Shown one piece after another: positions 2,752 to 38,673 of a DNA stretch of 53,856 nt. A program made the translations under genes and the position numbers. Source of the stretch: a virus; IMG/VR virus record IMGVR_UViG_3300020119_000151, positions 1 through 53,856 of that record. One strand, 5' to 3'. A model generated the notes under the pieces. It saw only the letters and a list, made by a program, of their open reading frames with translations. It was not told the DNA's origin and did not search any database. Position 1 is the stretch's first letter. Every line of letters begins with the position of its first letter.

Positions 2752-3219
2752 ATGGACTTTTCCTCAATGCTTCAATTTCTGCAAGGTTTGCTTGGCAACA
2801 AGCAACAGCAGAACGCATCACAGTTCGGCCAAAACCTTGGCTTGCAGAATCAGGAACTCACCCAGCAGGGTCAGCAGTTCGACAAGAACCTCGCCTTCCA
2901 GCAACAGCAGCTTGGACAGCAGGGCAACGAATTCAGCCAGAACCTTGCGCTTCAAAAGCAGATTCAGGACGAGGCAAACGCGCTCGCCCAGGGCAATTTT
3001 GGTTTGACGAAGCAGGGTCAGCAATGGCAGGAAGGTTTTCAGGACCGGATGAACGTAACGCCGGGAAGCCCGCTGTGGTTCCAGATGCAGGATGCCCTGA
3101 GAGCCCCAGCCGCACCTTCAGGGCCGTATGCCGACCCCAACAAACCCGGCGGCGCAAACAATCCGTTCAACAAGGTGACCTTCACCCCCGCTTCGGCGGC
3201 GTGGAGAAGCATTTTTTAA
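2752..3219 (+). CDS. Q-rich repeat protein, probable internal virion component
   Basis: A 155-residue protein. Residues about 22-85 hold roughly 18-residue repeats with the pattern F-x-x-N-L-x-x-Q followed by Q/L/G-rich helix. This should form a coiled coil or helical bundle. The last 50 residues are proline-rich and end with a short basic/aromatic tail. The gene sits just upstream of the long protein and is probably part of the same set of internal or ejected proteins. No enzymatic motif is visible. Confidence 0.6.
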   Translation: MDFSSMLQFLQGLLGNKQQQNASQFGQNLGLQNQELTQQGQQFDKNLAFQQQQLGQQGNEFSQNLALQKQIQDEANALAQGNFGLTKQGQQWQEGFQDRMNVTPGSPLWFQMQDALRAPAAPSGPYADPNKPGGANNPFNKVTFTPASAAWRSIF

Positions 3220-3220
3220 G

Positions 3221-4144
3221 ATGGACGAAGCAACGCAATATCTGAACGAGTGGCAGCAAGCGCAGGACCGTTATCGGGCCGGCGTCAATGCCGGTTACTC
3301 GGACGCGGACGCGCAACAGTTGTACCTCGCGCCCGTGCAAGCGAAATGGGACGTTCTGAAGTCGGTTCCGCCGGCATTGAAAACAAAAGCCGCGACTGAT
3401 CTGGATACGGCACACATCAACTTTTTGAAGGGCGTTCAGGCGGGCTATCAACCCGGGCAGGCCGCAGACCTCTATTTGAAACCCGCCCTGGCCGAATGGC
3501 AGGGCGCGGCCAACCTGCCCCAGCGCCAGCTTCCCAAGACTTTGGAACAAAGAACCGAGTGGTACGCTCAAAATCCGGCGATGCAACAGGAGGAATCCGA
3601 GGCCCAGCAGCAAATCGCGGAGGGCGTTCCGATCAAGGATGCCATCGAGGGACACCCGATGCTTTTGAAAGCGCCTGGCTTTTCCCAAGTGTGGCGTCCC
3701 ATGTATGAATCCGCCGTTCGCCGCGGTGAAACCGCACAGGCGAAAACGGAACAGGAAAACAGCCCTGAAGGACTGGCGCGGCAGATGTTTCAAATCGCCG
3801 CCGGACGCAAGAATTTCGCCGCTGATTCGCCGGCACAGGCGTTTTTCACCCAGCGCCTTGGTGAGCTTGAAAATCAGGCGACCAATGGGCCGGCGGCAAC
3901 CGCGCCGAACGTCGTTCCCGTGCCGTCGCAGAGATATGCTCCGAAACCGCCAGATGAAGGCCCAACGCCCGAAGAACTGGTTCAGGAGCAACATCCCGAC
4001 TGGACACCCGCACAGGTTAAGCTAGGGGTTTCCGGTAGATTGGGAGGGGCAATCACCCTACCCGAAGTAGGGGAAGTTCGTAAGGGATACCGCTACAATG
4101 GCGGCAACCCTGCCCTTAAATCTAATTGGGAAAAAGTCGAATGA
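3221..4144 (+). CDS. Helical virion-associated protein, unknown function
   Basis: A 307-residue, mostly helical, charged protein. Two related segments (about 8-45 and 62-95) each read like a helix, then GxxAGY..G/DAxxLYL, then a helix with W, suggesting an internal duplication. The C-terminal 30 residues contain a glycine/tyrosine motif (GYRYNGGNP followed by W-E-K-V) often seen at the ends of phage virion proteins. Its stop overlaps the start of the giant gene by ATGA. No catalytic residues are recognised. Confidence 0.6.
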   Translation: MDEATQYLNEWQQAQDRYRAGVNAGYSDADAQQLYLAPVQAKWDVLKSVPPALKTKAATDLDTAHINFLKGVQAGYQPGQAADLYLKPALAEWQGAANLPQRQLPKTLEQRTEWYAQNPAMQQEESEAQQQIAEGVPIKDAIEGHPMLLKAPGFSQVWRPMYESAVRRGETAQAKTEQENSPEGLARQMFQIAAGRKNFAADSPAQAFFTQRLGELENQATNGPAATAPNVVPVPSQRYAPKPPDEGPTPEELVQEQHPDWTPAQVKLGVSGRLGGAITLPEVGEVRKGYRYNGGNPALKSNWEKVE

Positions 4145-7100
4145 GCGAACCTTGGGAAGATTTTCAACAAGGCGCGACGGTGGCAGACGCGCCATCTTCG
4201 GATACTCCACCGTGGGAAGATTTCAAGCCCGCCGTCCTCTCAGACCAAGCCAAGGCTGATTTGGTTGAAACGGCCAAGAAGAACGCCCAGCGGCAGGCCG
4301 CGCTGGGTCAGCCGTTTGCCGAGGTTCAGCCCGGCGGAGACGTGCAGCAACGCGCTCCCGACAACAACGCCGAAGCCAACCGTCAGGAATTCGCCAGCCT
4401 TCCGGGCCGGCTATCCAATGCGGCTGAAGAAGTCGGCGCGGAGATCCTGAACTATCCCGCCGAACTGTGGCGGGCTGATACCGGCAAACCCATGCAGTTT
4501 GTCGTCAAAAAGGACGAGAACGGCAAGGACCAGCTTACGACCGAGGAAAAGCCGCTTCCGTTCCAGCCTGGCATTTCCAAGTTTGAAAACTTCCAGATGG
4601 CGAATGAGGACATCGATCCGGTCAATTCGCTCATGGGCAAACTCGTCCGCGGCGCAGGGACGCCGGGGATGCTTTTGACGTTGCCCGCCGGAGAAGCAGA
4701 CCTTGTGAAAGGCTACTTTCTAACGCAAACCGTTCCTGGCGTCGTCGAGGGGGCGCAAGGCGCTTTGGACACCAGCAAAAGCACGAAGGAGCGCGTTGAA
4801 TCCGGCCTGTCGGGTACGGTGAACGGCCTTTTCTCATACCTGTTGGGGTTGAAGGCCGCAAAAACGCCGCCTGAGAAACTGGCGAGCGAGTTGAACGCTA
4901 CCACCCCTTTGCAGCGGGAAACGCCTGAAGGAGCCCAGCCGTCGCCAATCGTTCAAAAGGTGAATCAAAATCCTTGGGACGATTTTAAGCAGCCGGAGAC
5001 GCCGCCCGCGTTTGTAGGTGAGAAGCTTCCCGCCGGAATGGAAATCCAGCCCGTTGAAACGAAACCGGCTGAAAGTGAAACGAAACCGCCTGTTTCTGAA
5101 ACGGGCGAGCCATTAACTTTACAGCAAATTGCTGATAACCAAAAAGAGCAACACAACAAAACCGTCGCCATAATTCAAAAATTGCGCCCCGGCCTTGATG
5201 TCCAATCTGGGGGGCCAATGGGGGGTATTGAAATGTCTCCCAACGGAAAAGTATTGCGGGTTGGGCCGGAACTTCTTCAAAACGTGCAGGAAATGTATCC
5301 CGGAAGGGAGGAGGAAATAATTAGCCGATTGCTTGACGAGGAGGATATACACCGAAATCAATTCGACGAGCTAGGGGAAGGATTTCAGAAAAAACTTAGT
5401 GACTTGTGGAATGATGCGCCACAAGAAATAAAAAATCTGGTCAAAAGTATTTATTCAACAGACCCAGGAATGGAGGCGCATCATTGGGGCGCAGAATTGT
5501 TGCGAATGGGGCAACAGGCAAAAAACGGAGACTTAACCGAAACCGTCCATCCGACGCGCGGAGATACCGCAGCTAATGGGATTTCCAAGTTAAAAGATTG
5601 GGCGGAAAATCAAACGGGAGACATTGGAAAAGTATTGGGCAATAAGTCCCCAATCGAATCGCTGGGTGAAGGCATCGACTTTGCCACCATCCAAAAGCCG
5701 CATTTGGTCGGCGTCGAGGCAGGACTGAAGCTCACCCCTGAAGATGTTCCAGCGCTCCAAGCCTTGCAGAAGCAATCAGTCGGTGAAATGACCGCCGCCG
5801 CGCAGACCGGCGACAACGCGGCCTTTCAAACCCTGATGGGTAAAAACTCGTTTATCGGCGGCGCAATCGAGGGCGCAAGGCGTAAGGGTCCGAATTACGA
5901 TGTTTATCAATCCCTGAAATCTTCCCCGCCACCGGAATCACCAATTCCAGCGCCGGCAGTTCCGACAGCCGAACCAGCGGCGCAAACTCCCGTTCCGGCG
6001 GCGGGTGAAGTTCCGTCTGGATTCAAAGCTCCGCCCATGCCGGAAACATTCAATTCGGCAGAAGATGTTTTGAAGTATCGGCAGGCATATAAAGACGCCG
6101 AAATCGAGTTTTACAAGTCGCTTGGATTGACTGATGCCGAAGCAAACAAGTTTTTCCGCGCTGGAGACAGCCGAAGCAGCTTGGATGTGTCTAAAATTGA
6201 AGAAAAACTGACGCCTGAAAATCAGGCGCGACTGGATAGTTTTTCGCGTGGCGACGGTGGAGCGGTTTACCAATGGGACAGGCAATACAATCCCGAAGAA
6301 TTGGTTGACGAAACCAGCAAGTCAGATCTTGCCAGAAGCCTTGTCCAAAACATAGCCCGCGAATCTGCCCCGGCTGATTTTGGGGATAAGCTGCTTCATG
6401 GCGTCATCGCCTTACGAAACCTGAAAGCAAACGGGGGAACTTGGAGCGATGTTGCACGTGAGTTGGATTCATTCACTACACGTAATTCAGGTTCTCAAGG
6501 TGACAAGGCTGAATACTTTAAAAACCTTGGATTACAGTTAAGAGAATTTGCCGCCCGTCAGGGCATTGAATTGCCACAGGGGGATATGGGCGGAAAAATA
6601 CCCGATGTCCTGACGCACGGCGACGAGGTTCATGCCACCATGCCGGACGGCACGGAAGTCCAAGGCCACGTCATCGGCGCGGACAAAGAGGGCAACTCCG
6701 TCATCATCCAAAAGACCGGCGAAACGGTCACATTGCCAGAAAAACTAACGGAGGAAAAATCCCATGCCAATCCAAAGTCAAAAACAGTGGAAGTTCTTCG
6801 CAATCCACCACCCGGACCTGTTGAAGAAGTGGCAGGCGGAAAGCCCAGTGAGATTCAGCAGCCTGCCCCAGCACGTACCGCCGAAAGTGCGGGATTACCG
6901 ACCCAAAAAACTGCCGGTGTTCCTCAAGCCGGTTCCGGCGACGTAGCGCCAGAAGTTGAGTTTGTTGATTCGACAGGTTTGACTTCAATGCAGAAGGGCA
7001 AGCTAAAGAAAACCCTGTCCACCACGGTTTCAAAGCGAAACAGCCAAAAGACCTACACCGGCAGCAGGGCTAAAGTTGTCTCTGAAATGGTGAACGATGG

Positions 7101-20317: not shown

Positions 20318-21945
20318 AGGCATACGTCCAGCTTGGCAAAATCGGCGACGTGCTTTCAATCCTGCCGATACTGCAACACGATTACCAACTTCAGACACCG
20401 CTTCAATCGCTTCCCGGCACTGTGTCAAAAGTTCCTTTGGTGATAGCCAAAGAGTTTGCTTCCATCCTCGAAGGCGTGTCCTACGTCGAGCCGGTGATCT
20501 GGAAAGGCGATGCGAACGACTTGGCCGGCGCGATCATGTTCGCCAAAAAGCGTTTCAGTCAGGTTGTCGTCCTTCAGACCTGGGGAAATGTGCCGATTCA
20601 GCATCAAACGCCGTCCTTCCAGTTCGACCAGTGGAAGCGGGCGGGCGCGGTGCAATTCTTCGATGATTGGGCGCTTACTTTCGACAGGCGAAACCATGAA
20701 CGGGAAGCGCAATTCATGTCCCAAATCGGATGCGATATTAATAAGTGGAAATCTTACATCTTATTCGCAGACCATTCCCAAAGTAGTCCGTTCCTGCACA
20801 AAGAGGAACTTTATCAAATCTTGAACGAGATTGGCATGAGCCATCAGCCATTTCCCATAAAAGTGGTTCGCTTGTCAGAAATAAAAACTTTCAGAATTTT
20901 CGACCTTCTCGCCCTTTACGATAAGGCGCTGATGCTCGTCACCGTCGAAACAGCCCATTTACATCTTTCAAGAGCTTCCCATGTTCCAACCGTCGCGCTC
21001 GCGGCCCCAGGCTGGCGCGGTTCGGCGTTCTCGAAGCGATTCGCGTTCTTCATGCGCTATCCCGAGTGGGACAGCCGGAAGCAGGACTTGATTGCCGCCG
21101 TTCGCGCCGCCGTCGAAGGCCGGTCTATTGCGCCGAAGGTTGAGAAGCTGGATACTCGCCCCCTGCATTGCTACAACCTAGCCCATATTGATTTCAACGG
21201 AACAGAGCATTATTGCTACCGCGCTCACACGAACGGGAACTGGAAAACCAAGCTGTTCCTGAACGGAAACGAATTGCGGTTGCCGCCGAAGTACAAGGAC
21301 TATTCGCACGAAGATTTACGCTTCTTTGAGTTCAACGGCAAGCTTCACGGTGTCTATGTGATGTCAACGACGGTTGATAACTTCTTTCGCTGCTACGTTG
21401 CTTACGGCGAGATTCGCGGGAACGAGATTGACCACATCCAGATTCAGATGCCGGATAACAACCTGCTTGGGATGACCAAGAATTTTGTTCCATTCGTCCA
21501 TGAAAACCGCTTACATTTCGTGTATGGCATCAAAGGCCAAAATCAGATTGTCCTGGGAGTGGACCGAGACAAAGTGGTTGCCGAATATAAAGCGCCGGCC
21601 CCTGCCTGGTCATTCGGTGAGATCAGGGGCGGTTGCATCGTGCCTCACAATGGCGCATACCTTCGATTCTTTCATTCAAGGGCGCAGTATAGCGATAAGA
21701 CCCAACGCTACTTTGTCGGCACGTCCATCATCGAGGCGAAACCGCCATTCAAGACGCTGGCGGTAAGCAAGCGCCCCATCTTACAGGGCGACGAGTGTTA
21801 TACCCCTAATTGCCATCATTGGAAGGCGAACGTGATTATCTGCTACGGGTGCATAAAACAGGGGGATAAATTCCTTTTAAGCTGTGGAAGAAATGACGCG
21901 GAATGTATCATTGTTGAGTTGAGCGAGAGCGACTTAAACCTATGA
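20314..21945 (+). CDS. GT9-like glycosyltransferase fused to GH130-like beta-propeller
   Basis: A 543-residue protein of two parts. Residues 1-270 resemble heptosyltransferase-type family 9 transferases: the N-terminal strand and loop (GKIGDVLSILPIL), a run of alternating beta/alpha, and a VETAHLHLSRASHVPTVAL donor-site segment. Residues about 285-540 read like the five-bladed propeller of GH130-type enzymes: a GEIRGGCIVP turn, FFHSR, an EAKPPFKTL segment, PILQGDE, then CYGCI and CGRNDAE near the end. The propeller may bind or phosphorolyse mannose- or glucose-type sugars, or act only as a carbohydrate-binding platform. No signal peptide is present. A bifunctional enzyme remodelling a host or virion glycan is plausible. 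Confidence 0.7.
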   Translation: MKAYVQLGKIGDVLSILPILQHDYQLQTPLQSLPGTVSKVPLVIAKEFASILEGVSYVEPVIWKGDANDLAGAIMFAKKRFSQVVVLQTWGNVPIQHQTPSFQFDQWKRAGAVQFFDDWALTFDRRNHEREAQFMSQIGCDINKWKSYILFADHSQSSPFLHKEELYQILNEIGMSHQPFPIKVVRLSEIKTFRIFDLLALYDKALMLVTVETAHLHLSRASHVPTVALAAPGWRGSAFSKRFAFFMRYPEWDSRKQDLIAAVRAAVEGRSIAPKVEKLDTRPLHCYNLAHIDFNGTEHYCYRAHTNGNWKTKLFLNGNELRLPPKYKDYSHEDLRFFEFNGKLHGVYVMSTTVDNFFRCYVAYGEIRGNEIDHIQIQMPDNNLLGMTKNFVPFVHENRLHFVYGIKGQNQIVLGVDRDKVVAEYKAPAPAWSFGEIRGGCIVPHNGAYLRFFHSRAQYSDKTQRYFVGTSIIEAKPPFKTLAVSKRPILQGDECYTPNCHHWKANVIICYGCIKQGDKFLLSCGRNDAECIIVELSESDLNL

Positions 21946-22538
21946 AAAAGCCTGAAAATTTCGACCGATGGCAAGACATGCTTCGTCGTTGCTATGATAA
22001 AATGCGACCCATGTTCAAATATTATGGAGCGCGGGGCATTCGGGTGTGTGAATTTTTAAGGGCATCCCCAGCCAATCTTACGGCCGTGCTTGGCAAGCAG
22101 CCTACAAAAAAACATTCAATGGACCGGAAGGAAAATGACGACAATTATTCATGCGGCGCTTGCGCGGAATGTCTATACAAAGGATGGAAGCTGAACCTTC
22201 GTTGGGCAACGCCTGTTGAGCAATCAAGAAACCGGCGATTTGTTCACCGAATAGAGGTTCATGGTGAAATCCTAACTCCGCCTGAAATCGCCGACAAATA
22301 CAAGATTCCATACCGCACCATAAAAACCAGGATGGCGAACGGCGAGACGGGCGATGCTCTTGCATTACCTGTGACCAAAACAGCAACCTATCGGTATCAG
22401 GGTAAGATGCGTTCCATCCCACAAATAGCAAAGCTTTCAGGCGTTCCAAAGAGAAGGATTTATTTGCTTCGAGAGCAGTATGACGATTTTTTAAAAAAAA
22501 TAGGCGACTATCCCCTCACGACAAGTAATGAAAAATAA
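21942..22538 (+). CDS. Homing-type nuclease with nuclease-associated DNA-binding repeats
   Basis: A 198-residue protein. Residues 8-90 match the small phage nuclease pattern W-x-x-M-x-x-R-C, YYGARGI, DRKENDDNY and LRWATPVEQSRNRR, the arrangement of HNH/AP2-like homing proteins. Two following segments (about 98-140 and 148-188) look like modular DNA-binding repeats that pair with homing nucleases. Base composition is AT-rich. The last 11 residues are encoded by the left end of the adjacent inserted cassette; without it the reading frame would stop at a TGA overlapping the ATG at 23176. Confidence 0.7.
   Translation: MKKPENFDRWQDMLRRCYDKMRPMFKYYGARGIRVCEFLRASPANLTAVLGKQPTKKHSMDRKENDDNYSCGACAECLYKGWKLNLRWATPVEQSRNRRFVHRIEVHGEILTPPEIADKYKIPYRTIKTRMANGETGDALALPVTKTATYRYQGKMRSIPQIAKLSGVPKRRIYLLREQYDDFLKKIGDYPLTTSNEK
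22503..22528. repeat. Left 26-bp inverted repeat of the cassette
   Basis: Perfect reverse complement of 23143-23168. It begins GGCGACTATCCCC and ends at the A of the methyltransferase ATG. It also encodes part of the 11-residue tail added to the upstream nuclease. Confidence 0.95.
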
Positions 22539-23163
22539 GCCAAAACTTTTAGACCTTTATTGCTGTGCCGGTGGCGCAGGCGAAGGCTATCGCCTTGCGG
22601 GCTTTGATGTGACCGGCGTTGACATCCAGCCACAGCCGAAGAATCCGCATCGTTTCGTGCTGGCCGATGCGTTGGAATATTTGGCGGAACATGGGCACGA
22701 ATACGACGCAATCCACGCCTCGCCGCCGTGCCAAGCCTACACGAAGGCGGGAAAGCAATGGCGAAAAGAAGGCCGCGAATATCCAGACTTGATTGCATCT
22801 ACACGCGCTGGTTTGGAAAAGACAGGAAAGCCATGGGTAATAGAGAATGTGCCGGGAAGTCCGCTGCAAAATCCAATATTGCTGAACGGTTCAGTGTTCG
22901 GAATCCGAGTCCACAAGCCGCGACTGTTTGAAACCAGCTTCCCCATTGAACAACCGGAGGTGCCGTCGATGAAACCTGTTAAAATGGGCCGTCCGATTAA
23001 AGACGGTGAAATAGTTCAGCCCGTTGGTCACTTCTCTGGTGTTCGTTACGCCGCCAAAGAAATGGGACTGTTATGGATGGGGCAAAGTGAACTGGCGCAA
23101 GCTATCCCGCCAGCCTATACAAAATGGATAGCAAAATACCTCTTACTTGTCGTGAGGGGATAG
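22528..23163 (+). CDS. Compact DNA cytosine-5 methyltransferase-like protein
   Basis: A 211-residue protein with the cytosine-C5 motifs in order: motif I (LLDLYCCAGGAGEGY, residues 7-21), SPPCQ at 65-69 with the catalytic Cys68, and VIENVPG at 104-110 with the ENV glutamate. It lacks a clear target-recognition domain and the motif IX-X region of full enzymes such as the Dcm at 36794. Such short phage forms may need a partner or use relaxed recognition. The last residues come from the right inverted repeat. It probably methylates phage DNA against host restriction. Confidence 0.75.
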   Translation: MKNKPKLLDLYCCAGGAGEGYRLAGFDVTGVDIQPQPKNPHRFVLADALEYLAEHGHEYDAIHASPPCQAYTKAGKQWRKEGREYPDLIASTRAGLEKTGKPWVIENVPGSPLQNPILLNGSVFGIRVHKPRLFETSFPIEQPEVPSMKPVKMGRPIKDGEIVQPVGHFSGVRYAAKEMGLLWMGQSELAQAIPPAYTKWIAKYLLLVVRG

Positions 23164-23168
23164 TCGCC
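23143..23168. repeat. Right 26-bp inverted repeat of the cassette
   Basis: Perfect reverse complement of 22503-22528. It encodes the last residues and stop codon of the methyltransferase. AAAAAATA follows directly and overlaps the A of the next start codon at 23176. Confidence 0.95.
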
Positions 23169-23175
23169 AAAAAAT

Positions 23176-23787
23176 ATGAACATCTTCGACAAAATTGAAA
23201 CCGTCCACGCTTCCACCGAAGGGTGGTGTTCTCAAAAAAAAGCGTTCACGCTCGCCGCCATCGTCATTTCAACCCAGCCAGAAATCAGCGTTGAGATCGG
23301 AGTCTTTTACGGCAAAAGCCTCCTACCCGTCGCGCTGGCACACCAGCATATCGGCAAAGGCGGCGTTATCGCCATCGACCCATGGATGGCGGAAGCGTCC
23401 ATCGCCGGCCAAGTGAATCCCCAGGATGTTGAATACTGGAACCGTCAGCACATTCATCAAACCGCCTACGAAGCATTTCGTAAAAAGGTGTACGAGCTTG
23501 GCTTGCAGAACATGGTACGCATCGAGCGCAAGAAATCGGACGACTTTGAGCCGCCGGCCGACATCGGGCTTTTGAGCGTGGACGGAAATCACGGCGAGCA
23601 GGCGATTCGGGACGTGGAGCGATACGCCCCGAAGGTGAAGCGCGGCGGCTTCCTCGTCGCCGATGACATTGAATGGACCGGCGGCGCGGTGGGGAAAGCA
23701 ATCTCCCTGTTGCCTGGAATGGGCTTTGTGGAAATGTATCGGGTGAAGAACGAACAAGAATCTTGGGCGGTTTTCCAGCGTCTATGA
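23176..23787 (+). CDS. Class I SAM-dependent methyltransferase (Methyltransf_24-like)
   Basis: A 203-residue protein. The SAM-binding loop is SVEIGVFYGKSLLPVAL, with a following acidic strand VIAIDPW. The downstream IGLLSVDGNHG and RGGFLVADDIEW match the metal- and substrate-binding segments of the small-molecule/sugar methyltransferase family often found in glycan clusters. It lies between glycosyltransferase genes, so it may O-methylate a sugar. The start at 23176 would be an ATGA overlap in the uninterrupted ancestor. Confidence 0.8.
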   Translation: MNIFDKIETVHASTEGWCSQKKAFTLAAIVISTQPEISVEIGVFYGKSLLPVALAHQHIGKGGVIAIDPWMAEASIAGQVNPQDVEYWNRQHIHQTAYEAFRKKVYELGLQNMVRIERKKSDDFEPPADIGLLSVDGNHGEQAIRDVERYAPKVKRGGFLVADDIEWTGGAVGKAISLLPGMGFVEMYRVKNEQESWAVFQRL

Positions 23788-29571: not shown

Positions 29572-29939
29572 AAACATTTACATCATCCCTACAATCCATG
29601 CCGGTTGGGCAAGGTCTTTCGCTGGCCATACCCCACGGCCTTGATTCCGTTCCGGCCGTCGTTCGTGGTGTTCTGGTATGTGAAGCGGCAGATATAAACA
29701 CCGGCCTTTTGCCGGGGCAGGAAATCGACGTTCTTTGCCTGTTTGAGCCAGTCGACCCGGACAGTGGAAAGCCCGCGCCTGCCGCGAGCGTGTTTGCGGA
29801 TGCCAGCAACGTGTATCTGAACAGCAGTAGCATCTATCCCGGCAACGAAACGAACGTCATTATAGCCAACAGTGGCGCTCCCGGTGTCATTCAGGACTTC
29901 AATAATTTCAAGCTCAAGCTCTACGCTCTGGCTTTTTGA
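29568..29939 (+). CDS. Beta-rich virion-type protein, unknown
   Basis: A 123-residue protein that overlaps both neighbours by ATGA. It is largely beta in pattern, with IPHGLDSVPAVVRGVLVC near the N-terminus, similar to small structural proteins found after fibre or capsid genes in other phages. It has no signal peptide or catalytic motif. Confidence 0.55.
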   Translation: MKTFTSSLQSMPVGQGLSLAIPHGLDSVPAVVRGVLVCEAADINTGLLPGQEIDVLCLFEPVDPDSGKPAPAASVFADASNVYLNSSSIYPGNETNVIIANSGAPGVIQDFNNFKLKLYALAF

Positions 29940-30415
29940 TGAAAACTTTCGCCTTAACCTTGGGTTTGGCGCTTCTGTCGGTCCTCACAAGGGCCGACAT
30001 CGTTTTTACTTGGACCAACTGCCCGAACCGGCTCGCCGGCTCCGCCACGCTCGTTTGGCGCGGGACAACCGCCCCCCTGAACTATTCCGTCTCCTACTCG
30101 ACCTTTGGGACGAACCTCGTATTTCCTGATGCGGCCCTGACGCCTGGCTTCAATTTCTTCGCCGTTCAGCAGATTGCCACGAACGCCGCCGGCCAAGTCT
30201 CCGCTACGATCATGTCGGGCGAAATTCAGGTCCAGGTGAACCCCGCCGTCAATGTGGACGTGCGGACGATGGCAAGCACGAACCTTGGCATGGGCTGGAC
30301 GGTTGTAGGCCAGCAAACATTCACCTTCCCGACCGCGGACGCCCAGCAACAGTTTTTTCTGACCCAACAGCGTATCAGCCGGACGAACATCGTAATTTTA
30401 CCCCCACACCCATGA
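29936..30415 (+). CDS. Secreted beta-sandwich protein
   Basis: A 159-residue protein with a clear signal peptide: MKTF, a hydrophobic core (ALTLGLALLSVL) and a likely cleavage after TRA. The mature part has alternating beta strands like a fibronectin-type domain (ATLVWRGTTAPLNYSVSY). The ending, STNLGMGWTVVGQQTF followed by an aromatic FF, resembles repeats common in exported Verrucomicrobiota proteins, so it may be of host origin. It could act in the envelope during lysis or exclusion. Confidence 0.6.
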   Translation: MMKTFALTLGLALLSVLTRADIVFTWTNCPNRLAGSATLVWRGTTAPLNYSVSYSTFGTNLVFPDAALTPGFNFFAVQQIATNAAGQVSATIMSGEIQVQVNPAVNVDVRTMASTNLGMGWTVVGQQTFTFPTADAQQQFFLTQQRISRTNIVILPPHP

Positions 30416-36793: not shown

Positions 36794-37750
36794 TCAAATC
36801 TTCATGGCTTCAAACGCTGCTTGGATGAACTCCGCCGCGAGGACCGGATTGATAGCGTTGCCAAAACCAGTGATGACAGCCATTCGCGCGGGAAACCCAT
36901 TAACCAGCGGGAATGCTCCGGGTTCAAAACGCCGGGCTTTACCGTCCCGGCATTGGGCGATGCAATACCTGGACCAGAAGCCGGGAGAACTTCCGTGATA
37001 TATCCGCCAGTCCTTCCCGTCGCTATCCGTGAAGGCCGCAGGTTCTTCCGGTCTATCACATCCATGGCTGTGCACGTCGGCCAGGGCGTCAATGGCTGCG
37101 CGGCTTGGTCTAACAACGATTGGCCGGTATGCGCCCCCCCGCGCCTTCTTGTCCGCGTCCGTCTCCGGGCTCCCCCTCGTCGCATCGCAACAGTTCGGAG
37201 TCGCCCAAGGCGCCAGCGGCGCCCCGCCGTGAACGACCTGGTTCGCCAGTTGGTCAACAGCAATCCAGTGGAGTCTTGGGCGGTTATGCGGCGCTTTGAC
37301 GCCCGCAGAGCAGAGATCGGCGCCCCCGAAGGCATAGCCACCGTTTTCCATGTCAGAACGAACTCGGGCGAGCCATCCAAATCCATCCTTCTTTGCAACC
37401 TGCTCACCAAGGACGATTGCAGGACGGCAGATGCCGATGAGGTTGCGAAAATACGGCCACAGATGGCGCTCGTCAGCTTCTCCCAATCCCTGTCCAGCAA
37501 CGCTAAACGGCTGGCATGGGCAGGAGCCGGTCCACAGGGTATGCTCGTCGCTGATGCCGGCGAGCCGGAGGGCGAGACTCCACCCGCCGATGCCGGCGAA
37601 GAAATGGCATTGCCGGTATCCGGCGAGGTCTTTTGGTGTGACATCTTGAATGTTCCTTTCGTCTATGTCGCCGGCCGGGATGCTTCCCTGCTCAATCAGG
37701 GCGCGGAGCCACTGGACGGCTTTTGGGTTGTGTTCGTTGTAGTAGTTCAT
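36794..37750 (-). CDS. DNA cytosine-5 methyltransferase (Dcm type)
   Basis: A 318-residue protein; ATG 37750 overlaps the stop of the upstream gene. Motif I is HFFAGIGGWSLALRLAG, motif IV is TGSCPCQPFSVAG with the catalytic Cys, motif VI is VLGEQVAKKDG (EQV variant of ENV), motif VIII is HNRPRLHWIAVD, and motif X is GFGNAINPVLAAEFI. A short target-recognition region lies between. It probably protects phage DNA from restriction or affects packaging and regulation. A second, 280-codon frame is open through the same DNA. Confidence 0.9.
   Translation of the reverse strand: MNYYNEHNPKAVQWLRALIEQGSIPAGDIDERNIQDVTPKDLAGYRQCHFFAGIGGWSLALRLAGISDEHTLWTGSCPCQPFSVAGQGLGEADERHLWPYFRNLIGICRPAIVLGEQVAKKDGFGWLARVRSDMENGGYAFGGADLCSAGVKAPHNRPRLHWIAVDQLANQVVHGGAPLAPWATPNCCDATRGSPETDADKKARGGAYRPIVVRPSRAAIDALADVHSHGCDRPEEPAAFTDSDGKDWRIYHGSSPGFWSRYCIAQCRDGKARRFEPGAFPLVNGFPARMAVITGFGNAINPVLAAEFIQAAFEAMKI
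36802..37644 (-). CDS. Possible overprinted ORF inside the Dcm gene
   Basis: An alternative frame of 280 codons on the same strand, entirely within the Dcm gene. It is Ser/Arg/Ala-rich. It contains FVLTWKTVAMPSGAPISALR and, near the end, LNPEHSRWLMGFPREW, patterns I recall from a widespread phage protein family that accompanies Dcm genes. Conservation of that family would support dual coding. However, GC-rich genes often leave long open alternative frames, so coding is unproven. Confidence 0.35.
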   Translation of the reverse strand: MSHQKTSPDTGNAISSPASAGGVSPSGSPASATSIPCGPAPAHASRLALLDRDWEKLTSAICGRIFATSSASAVLQSSLVSRLQRRMDLDGSPEFVLTWKTVAMPSGAPISALRASKRRITAQDSTGLLLTNWRTRSFTAGRRWRLGRLRTVAMRRGGARRRTRTRRRGGAHTGQSLLDQAAQPLTPWPTCTAMDVIDRKNLRPSRIATGRTGGYITEVLPASGPGIASPNAGTVKPGVLNPEHSRWLMGFPREWLSSLVLATLSIRSSRRSSSKQRLKP

Positions 37751-38673
37751 TCGCACAGTCCTGACTGACAGGGCGCGTGTGAATCGTCCTGGTTAAAATC
37801 TTCTTCCTCCAACATTTCGGCGGTGATCGCCAGCTTTGCCCCGCGCTGTGTCATCGACCACTTCGCCACGTCGTCAATCGTCGCCACGTTCATGGCGCCC
37901 TTCTTGGTCATCACCGGACGGGAACGGAACCTTTCCGGAACCGTCTTGCGATGGAACCACGATGAATAATCGGTGATGCTGCCCCGGGAAACCCGGTAGG
38001 CGCTGACAACCAATTCCCACACCCGGTAAATGGTAAGCACCTCGGGACGTTTCCGCAGCGTCCTCCGGACGTCGGGTTTGTTCGACATGATGCAGATGCG
38101 ACAGCCAACCCGCTTCCATCCGAGCGTGTACAGCGGATTGATGGGCAGCTTCCAGCGGCGATGCGCGTCCCACACTTGCGCGATGGTCCAGGTGAGCAGC
38201 GGACGGCGTACGCGACAGCCGAAGATGTCGTTGCCCCATTCCTCCATCATGCTGCGCTCAATCGATTCGTTCGCCCGCACTCCTGAATGGCTTACGATTT
38301 CGTGTCCCTTCGCCCGCAGTTCGGCGATGTATTTCTCAAGCGGTTTGATCTTCAGGAACTCGGTACAGAAGCGCGTCTTGGCCGATGGAAATCGCCCCTT
38401 CCAGATGGCGAGCGCGAGGAACAGCGGGAACATCCAATACTTCTCGACCCAATCGCCCGAAGCCCGCAGGTACACGACTGGCGCCACCCCATGCTTCAGG
38501 CAATAGGCGTTCAGGTCTTTGATTTGCTGATAAACCTCGTCGTATTCGTTTTCCGTGTCCGTAAAGACACAGATGATGCTGTCCCTGGGGTAACCGCTCT
38601 CATGGATTGCCCACCCCAAAAGCGCGGTGGAGTCCTTGCCGCTCGACAGTCCGATGAGGTTCAGGCGTGACAT
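37747..38673 (-). CDS. PAPS reductase-like PP-loop protein
   Basis: A 308-residue protein. The PP-loop is LSSGKDST (residues 9-16), followed by a VFTDTENEYDE strand, the RFCTEFLKIKP segment and GVRANES..R characteristic of phosphoadenosine-phosphosulfate reductase and related ATP pyrophosphatases. A late GCRICIMSN pair of cysteines may hold a metal cluster. It could activate a substrate by adenylation for sulfur or nucleotide modification. It lies between Dcm and small genes. It overlaps the upstream gene by 13 bp. Confidence 0.8.
   Translation of the reverse strand: MSRLNLIGLSSGKDSTALLGWAIHESGYPRDSIICVFTDTENEYDEVYQQIKDLNAYCLKHGVAPVVYLRASGDWVEKYWMFPLFLALAIWKGRFPSAKTRFCTEFLKIKPLEKYIAELRAKGHEIVSHSGVRANESIERSMMEEWGNDIFGCRVRRPLLTWTIAQVWDAHRRWKLPINPLYTLGWKRVGCRICIMSNKPDVRRTLRKRPEVLTIYRVWELVVSAYRVSRGSITDYSSWFHRKTVPERFRSRPVMTKKGAMNVATIDDVAKWSMTQRGAKLAITAEMLEEEDFNQDDSHAPCQSGLCE

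Follow-up and report, generated by a model that had tools for sequence, protein, structure and literature searches.

A 666-bp segment of a phage genome that is represented by a single IMG/VR virus record (53,856 bp, analyzed over its whole length and referred to below as the window) is most probably a non-autonomous cargo transposon, i.e., a mobile insertion cassette, that inserted where two phage genes overlap. Its sole cargo is a DNA methyltransferase gene. A transposon-like insertion of this kind was proposed in a preliminary description of the DNA, and the proposal is well supported by the terminal repeats, the target duplication and a gene junction that can be restored by removing the cassette. 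Several points count against it: the cassette was seen once only, an empty site was not found in a closely related phage, the end agrees with the ISL3 and IS1595 ends compared at only 7 of 20 bases and, unlike typical IS derivatives, the cassette retains no subterminal sequence beyond its 26-bp arms.

Phages swap methyltransferases freely; the route by which single genes enter tight, overlapping operons is rarely visible. In the cassette, both ends can be read to the base, as can the target and the junction that preceded the insertion, so that this route of acquisition becomes testable. Cargo-only elements are already known in bacteria; what is new here is that the cargo is a lone methyltransferase and that the element is phage-borne and unusually minimal, consisting only of the arms and the gene. 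If such cassettes recur, protection from restriction would be a transposable phage trait that does not carry the cost of a transposase gene. The cassette is known from one example and, as no source of its ends was found, it is from its anatomy that we infer mobility.

Structure of the cassette

The cassette starts with GGCGAC and is bounded by two 26-bp terminal inverted repeats that are 100% complementary, the left arm at 22503–22528 on the + strand (GGCGACTATCCCCTCACGACAAGTAA) and the right arm, its reverse complement, at 23143–23168 on the − strand. Directly outside the arms is an 8-bp direct repeat, AAAAAATA, which adjoins the left end at 22495–22502 and the right end at 23169–23176 (no strand assigned to either copy). 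The observation is real. The 26-bp arm is found nowhere else in the window, even when three mismatches are allowed (chance expectation 0), and 200 local block shuffles of the region produced perfect inverted repeats of up to 14 bp, as compared to 26 bp observed. The octamer AAAAAATA occurs at three sites on the + strand of the 53,856 bp (one besides the cassette pair) and at none on the − strand, and among the 53,147 segments of 666 bp in the window, an 8-bp direct repeat borders the cassette and no other. The perfect 26-bp inverted repeats, the flanking 8-bp duplication and the enclosure of exactly one gene, for a compact cytosine methyltransferase, were all part of the preliminary description and are confirmed here; the open reading frame both begins and ends within the arms.

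Cargo methyltransferase

The enclosed gene (22528–23163, + strand) encodes a compact C5 cytosine DNA methyltransferase of 211 residues (phrog_363, E 6e-39), which also gives a weak match to the Pfam family DNA_methylase. Its first base, the A of the ATG, is the final base of the left arm, from which the 5′ leader also derives, while the right arm encodes the final residues, LLVVRG, and the stop codon. Motifs I, IV (PPC) and VI (ENV) are intact and conserved across alignments of 12 and 5 relatives. Comparison with the nearest relative, L003 (87% identical in amino acids and 79% in nucleotides over 203 codons), gave a dN of 0.087 and a dS of 1.35. The resulting dN/dS of about 0.06 points to strong purifying selection and thus to a working protein.

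The four nearest relatives (80–86%) are found on other IMG/VR phage contigs, with different neighbors and without inverted repeats. The homology to relatives opens at LLDLYCC, six residues past the cargo start, and closes where the right arm begins. Because relatives reside in other contexts without repeats, and because the portal-related phage L168 (52.7 kb) harbors no homologue, the methyltransferase gene is an accessory gene, most likely of horizontal origin. Judging from its family, the enzyme probably protects phage DNA from host restriction by modifying it.

Insertion site and ancestral junction

The insertion target is an HNH endonuclease gene (phrog_3377; 21942–22538, + strand), the final 11 codons of which come from the cassette. 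Downstream of the cassette is a gene with a Methyltransf_24 domain (23176–23787, + strand), where the A of the ATG is the final A of the right copy of AAAAAATA. When the flanks were joined by a script, with the cassette and one repeat removed, the junction read ...TTTAAAAAAAATA^TGAACATC..., which yields a reconstructed HNH protein of 187 residues, ending ...DFLKKI*, with a TGA stop codon that overlaps the ATG of the downstream gene (4-bp ATGA). The same 4-bp ATGA overlap is found at the three preceding gene junctions (19892, 20314 and 21942). Hence, the earlier claim that deletion of the cassette and one flank converts the junction to an ATGA overlap holds. The empty site is expected to read ...AAAAAATATGA... 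or, as a longer string, ...TTTTTTAAAAAAAATATGAACATC..., with a single AAAAAATA. The downstream gene, designated the next methyltransferase in the preliminary description, matches Methyltransf_24 in Pfam; since this family differs from that of the C5 DNA methylases, the protein is unlikely to be a typical DNA methylase.

At present, the HNH reading frame runs 11 codons into the cassette (GDYPLTTSNEK*). The insertion hardly disturbs the operon, because the HNH frame ends 11 nt into the methyltransferase gene and the methyltransferase stops within the right arm, 12 nt ahead of the next ATG. An upstream gene can enter the left arm in any of three frames. Here it briefly overlaps the cargo and ends 11 nt into it; in the other two frames it would either terminate on TAATG at the cargo start or be fused to the cargo in frame. 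We would interpret these outcomes as adaptation. A promoter was not detected within the cassette; the one match in the region lies far upstream, and shuffled sequences give 2.5 matches on average.

We suggest that a DDE transposase encoded elsewhere, i.e., on the host chromosome, a plasmid or another phage, recognized the 26-bp ends in trans, made its cuts at their terminal GG and linked them to an 8-bp staggered, A/T-rich target, where gap filling would have produced the 8-bp duplication. The promoterless cassette would then be read from the phage operon, and translation of the methyltransferase would probably occur by coupling. A broader reading, in which the cassette represents a class of minimal phage transposons that each carry one anti-restriction gene as their whole cargo, use their ends also for translational coupling and are transferred from one phage operon to another by host transposases, appears unlikely.

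Three HNH or endonuclease VII-type genes are dispersed in the phage (11662–12330, 21942–22538 and 25624–26418). Such scattering matches what is expected of free-standing homing nucleases.

Search for other copies and for the empty site

The preliminary description recommended that the 26-bp end be sought in phage and host genomes, which revealed no second copy in IMG/VR, the GTDB species genomes or 388 Verrucomicrobiota genomes. As an exact 20-mer the end is absent from IMG/VR, and as a 21-mer it is absent from the GTDB species genomes. The search in the 388 Verrucomicrobiota genomes, with 3 mismatches allowed, gave scattered matches, with no inverted partner among the 30 loci read. A 17-mer search of IMG/VR yielded a single match, inside a portal-like gene (L228), which was judged to be due to chance. 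As the cassette end was found in no other record searched, the spread among phages that was envisaged earlier is not established. Among 147 related methyltransferase loci that were scanned for close-fitting arms and a duplication, the window alone qualified; a later scan added L040, a larger transposon.

The element L040 (2233–5273) is an IS1-type transposon on a contig from an actinobacterial metagenome-assembled genome, with 18-bp ends (GGTAGTGGGTCAGTTTGA) and an 8-bp duplication (CGGCGAAG). It carries a C5 methyltransferase and an HNH nuclease and is likely a transposable restriction-modification module. Related IS1-type transposons with passenger genes are found in Verrucomicrobiota (L313, 1471–3867, and L314, 263–3476), where the 18-bp ends of L313 are identical to those of L040 in spite of the different phylum, and one of the passengers of L314 resembles a Panacea-type antitoxin, as judged from its sequence.

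The empty site, which the same description proposed to look for in related phages, was not found among relatives of the HNH gene, by a search for the exact ancestral junction or in two portal-related phages. The record of one of these (L167, 83%) stops before the insertion region. The other (L168, 57%) has non-homologous genes at the site; these keep the order of nuclease followed by SAM methyltransferase, overlap by ATGA and are not separated by a cassette. Capsid searches found no whole-phage relatives in GenBank.

Relation to known mobile elements

Elements that consist of cargo only and depend on a transposase acting in trans are called mobile insertion cassettes (MICs; PMC3129680), for example MIC231 of Bacillus cereus (cited in PMC2266710). 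The cassette shares with these elements the terminal inverted repeats, which abut the target duplication, and a single passenger open reading frame, here that of the C5 methyltransferase, with no transposase in the cassette. MICs are moved by a cognate transposase in trans and share their ends with an identified IS, whereas no partner IS was found for the cassette in IMG/VR, the GTDB species genomes or the 388 Verrucomicrobiota genomes, although a partner may exist in DNA yet to be sequenced; in addition, the cassette is phage-borne and consists of the arms and one gene only. Also described are restriction-modification units that are flanked by imperfect inverted repeats and have short target duplications (Furuta et al. 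2010, as reviewed in PMC3874152). They resemble the cassette as methyltransferase-containing units that look like DNA transposons without a transposase; in contrast, the cassette has perfect repeats, is phage-borne and carries a lone methyltransferase. It contains no restriction enzyme gene, and the adjacent HNH gene is found outside its ends. The transposon L040 has in common with the cassette an 8-bp duplication, ends that start with GG and a related C5 methyltransferase as cargo, but is autonomous, 3 kb in size, bounded by different ends and located on a bacterial contig.

The scanned proteins of the window include RusA, ERF, a DnaB helicase and HNH-type nucleases, but no transposase, integrase or invertase. 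The earlier statement that the cassette must be moved by another enzyme follows from this result. Candidate families were compared by means of Verrucomicrobiota IS copies, the ends and duplications of which were measured; the link of that phylum to the phage host is a guess. A small secreted protein (29936–30415 in the window), the style of which we take to be Verrucomicrobiota-like, is the sole hint of a host. A Verrucomicrobiota host is thus an unproven guess from the style of this one protein, and the phage capsid had no match in 378 Verrucomicrobiota genomes.

The ISL3 copies compared (L264, L269, L293–L295, L297 and L302–L304) have ends that start with GG, and most of their 8-bp duplications consist of A/T runs (TTTTTTAT, CAAAAAAA, ATAAAAAA, TTTAATTT, TCTTTTTT, AAAAATAA, AATTTATT and TTTCTTAT), with one exception (CGCTTTCG). 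The cassette displays the same combination, i.e., an A/T-rich 8-bp duplication (AAAAAATA) and GG-starting ends. A published ISL3-like transposon with fosB as passenger similarly has perfect repeats of 25 bp, about the length of the cassette arms, and AT-rich 8-bp duplications (PMC5559704). Unlike the cassette, ISL3 transposons encode their own transposase, and the end sequences that were compared differ. The geometry fits ISL3 best, and ISL3-type transposition is, tentatively, the most likely single family; the cassette only “moves like” ISL3, and no family is proven. Because a base-by-base comparison of the cassette end with one ISL3 end gave agreement at only 7 of 20 positions, and because an ISL3 transposase is absent from both the cassette and the scanned window proteins, we do not file the cassette as an ISL3 element. 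Cassettes driven by ISL3 and devoid of a transposase were not seen in genome G084.

Elements of the IS256/Mutator type generate duplications of 8–9 bp and have ends of 20–30 bp, and a resemblance to these elements was noted in the preliminary description. Among 30 IS256-type loci, many of them fragments, there was no clean pair and no end comparable to that of the cassette; the only plausible copy (L245) has imperfect ends and a mixed-base duplication. The resemblance is not supported, as the A/T-run duplication of 8 bp and the GG start suit an ISL3-type element better (PMC5559704). One clear IS1595 copy has the duplication GCTGCATC, and the IS1595 end compared agrees with the cassette end at 7 of 20 bases. 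The IS1-type copies have GGTAGTG... ends and mixed-base duplications. None of the IS1595, IS256 and IS1-type ends that were compared matches those of the cassette.

Alternative explanations

The cassette could be the shrunken remnant of an autonomous transposon that carried a transposase and a restriction-modification module, from which an internal deletion, before or after entry into the phage, left an element that may now be immobile. Precedents for the presumed ancestor are L040, with its related C5 methyltransferase and HNH nuclease, and the mobile restriction-modification units reviewed in PMC3874152, which are bounded by inverted repeats and short duplications. However, some subterminal transposon sequence would be expected to survive an internal deletion, whereas the cargo starts and ends within the arms, and the cassette ends differ from those of L040. 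We consider this origin rather unlikely.

The remaining alternatives do not involve transposition. A single promoterless operon gene between inverted repeats is what would be expected of an invertible segment that acts as an on/off switch of the methyltransferase, where flipping would cut transcription. This option, also raised in the preliminary description, is weak. Sites of invertases and tyrosine recombinases have an internal dyad, which the 26-mer lacks; neither an invertase nor an integrase was found among the scanned proteins; and the abutting direct repeat and the restored ATGA junction would be left unexplained. A switch of this type is thus very improbable. The location of the arms at the start and stop codons, together with perfect pairing that is possible within one transcript, could alternatively reflect a function at the RNA level, where a 26-bp duplex joins the ends of the message and is processed or protective. 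Such a function would not account for the 8-bp direct repeat that directly adjoins each arm, and relatives of the methyltransferase lack such arms, making it highly improbable. Finally, the structure is found in one metagenomic record, and the repeat length is near the short word sizes used by assemblers. Chance is excluded by the 0 arm copies expected and the shuffle maximum of 14 bp, and a misassembly would not create matching direct repeats around an intact gene with selected codons, such that an artefact or coincidence is extremely improbable.

Other genes and repeats

A gene for phosphoadenosine phosphosulfate reductase (37747–38673 in the window) is an auxiliary metabolic gene of the phage. 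In a 71-kb phage record (L110), two consecutive methyltransferase genes (2971–3673 and 3854–4513) each have their own perfect, AT-rich inverted repeat of 19–20 bp near the ends, with no target duplication, and the first of the two is also bordered by TAAATATGGAAC direct repeats.
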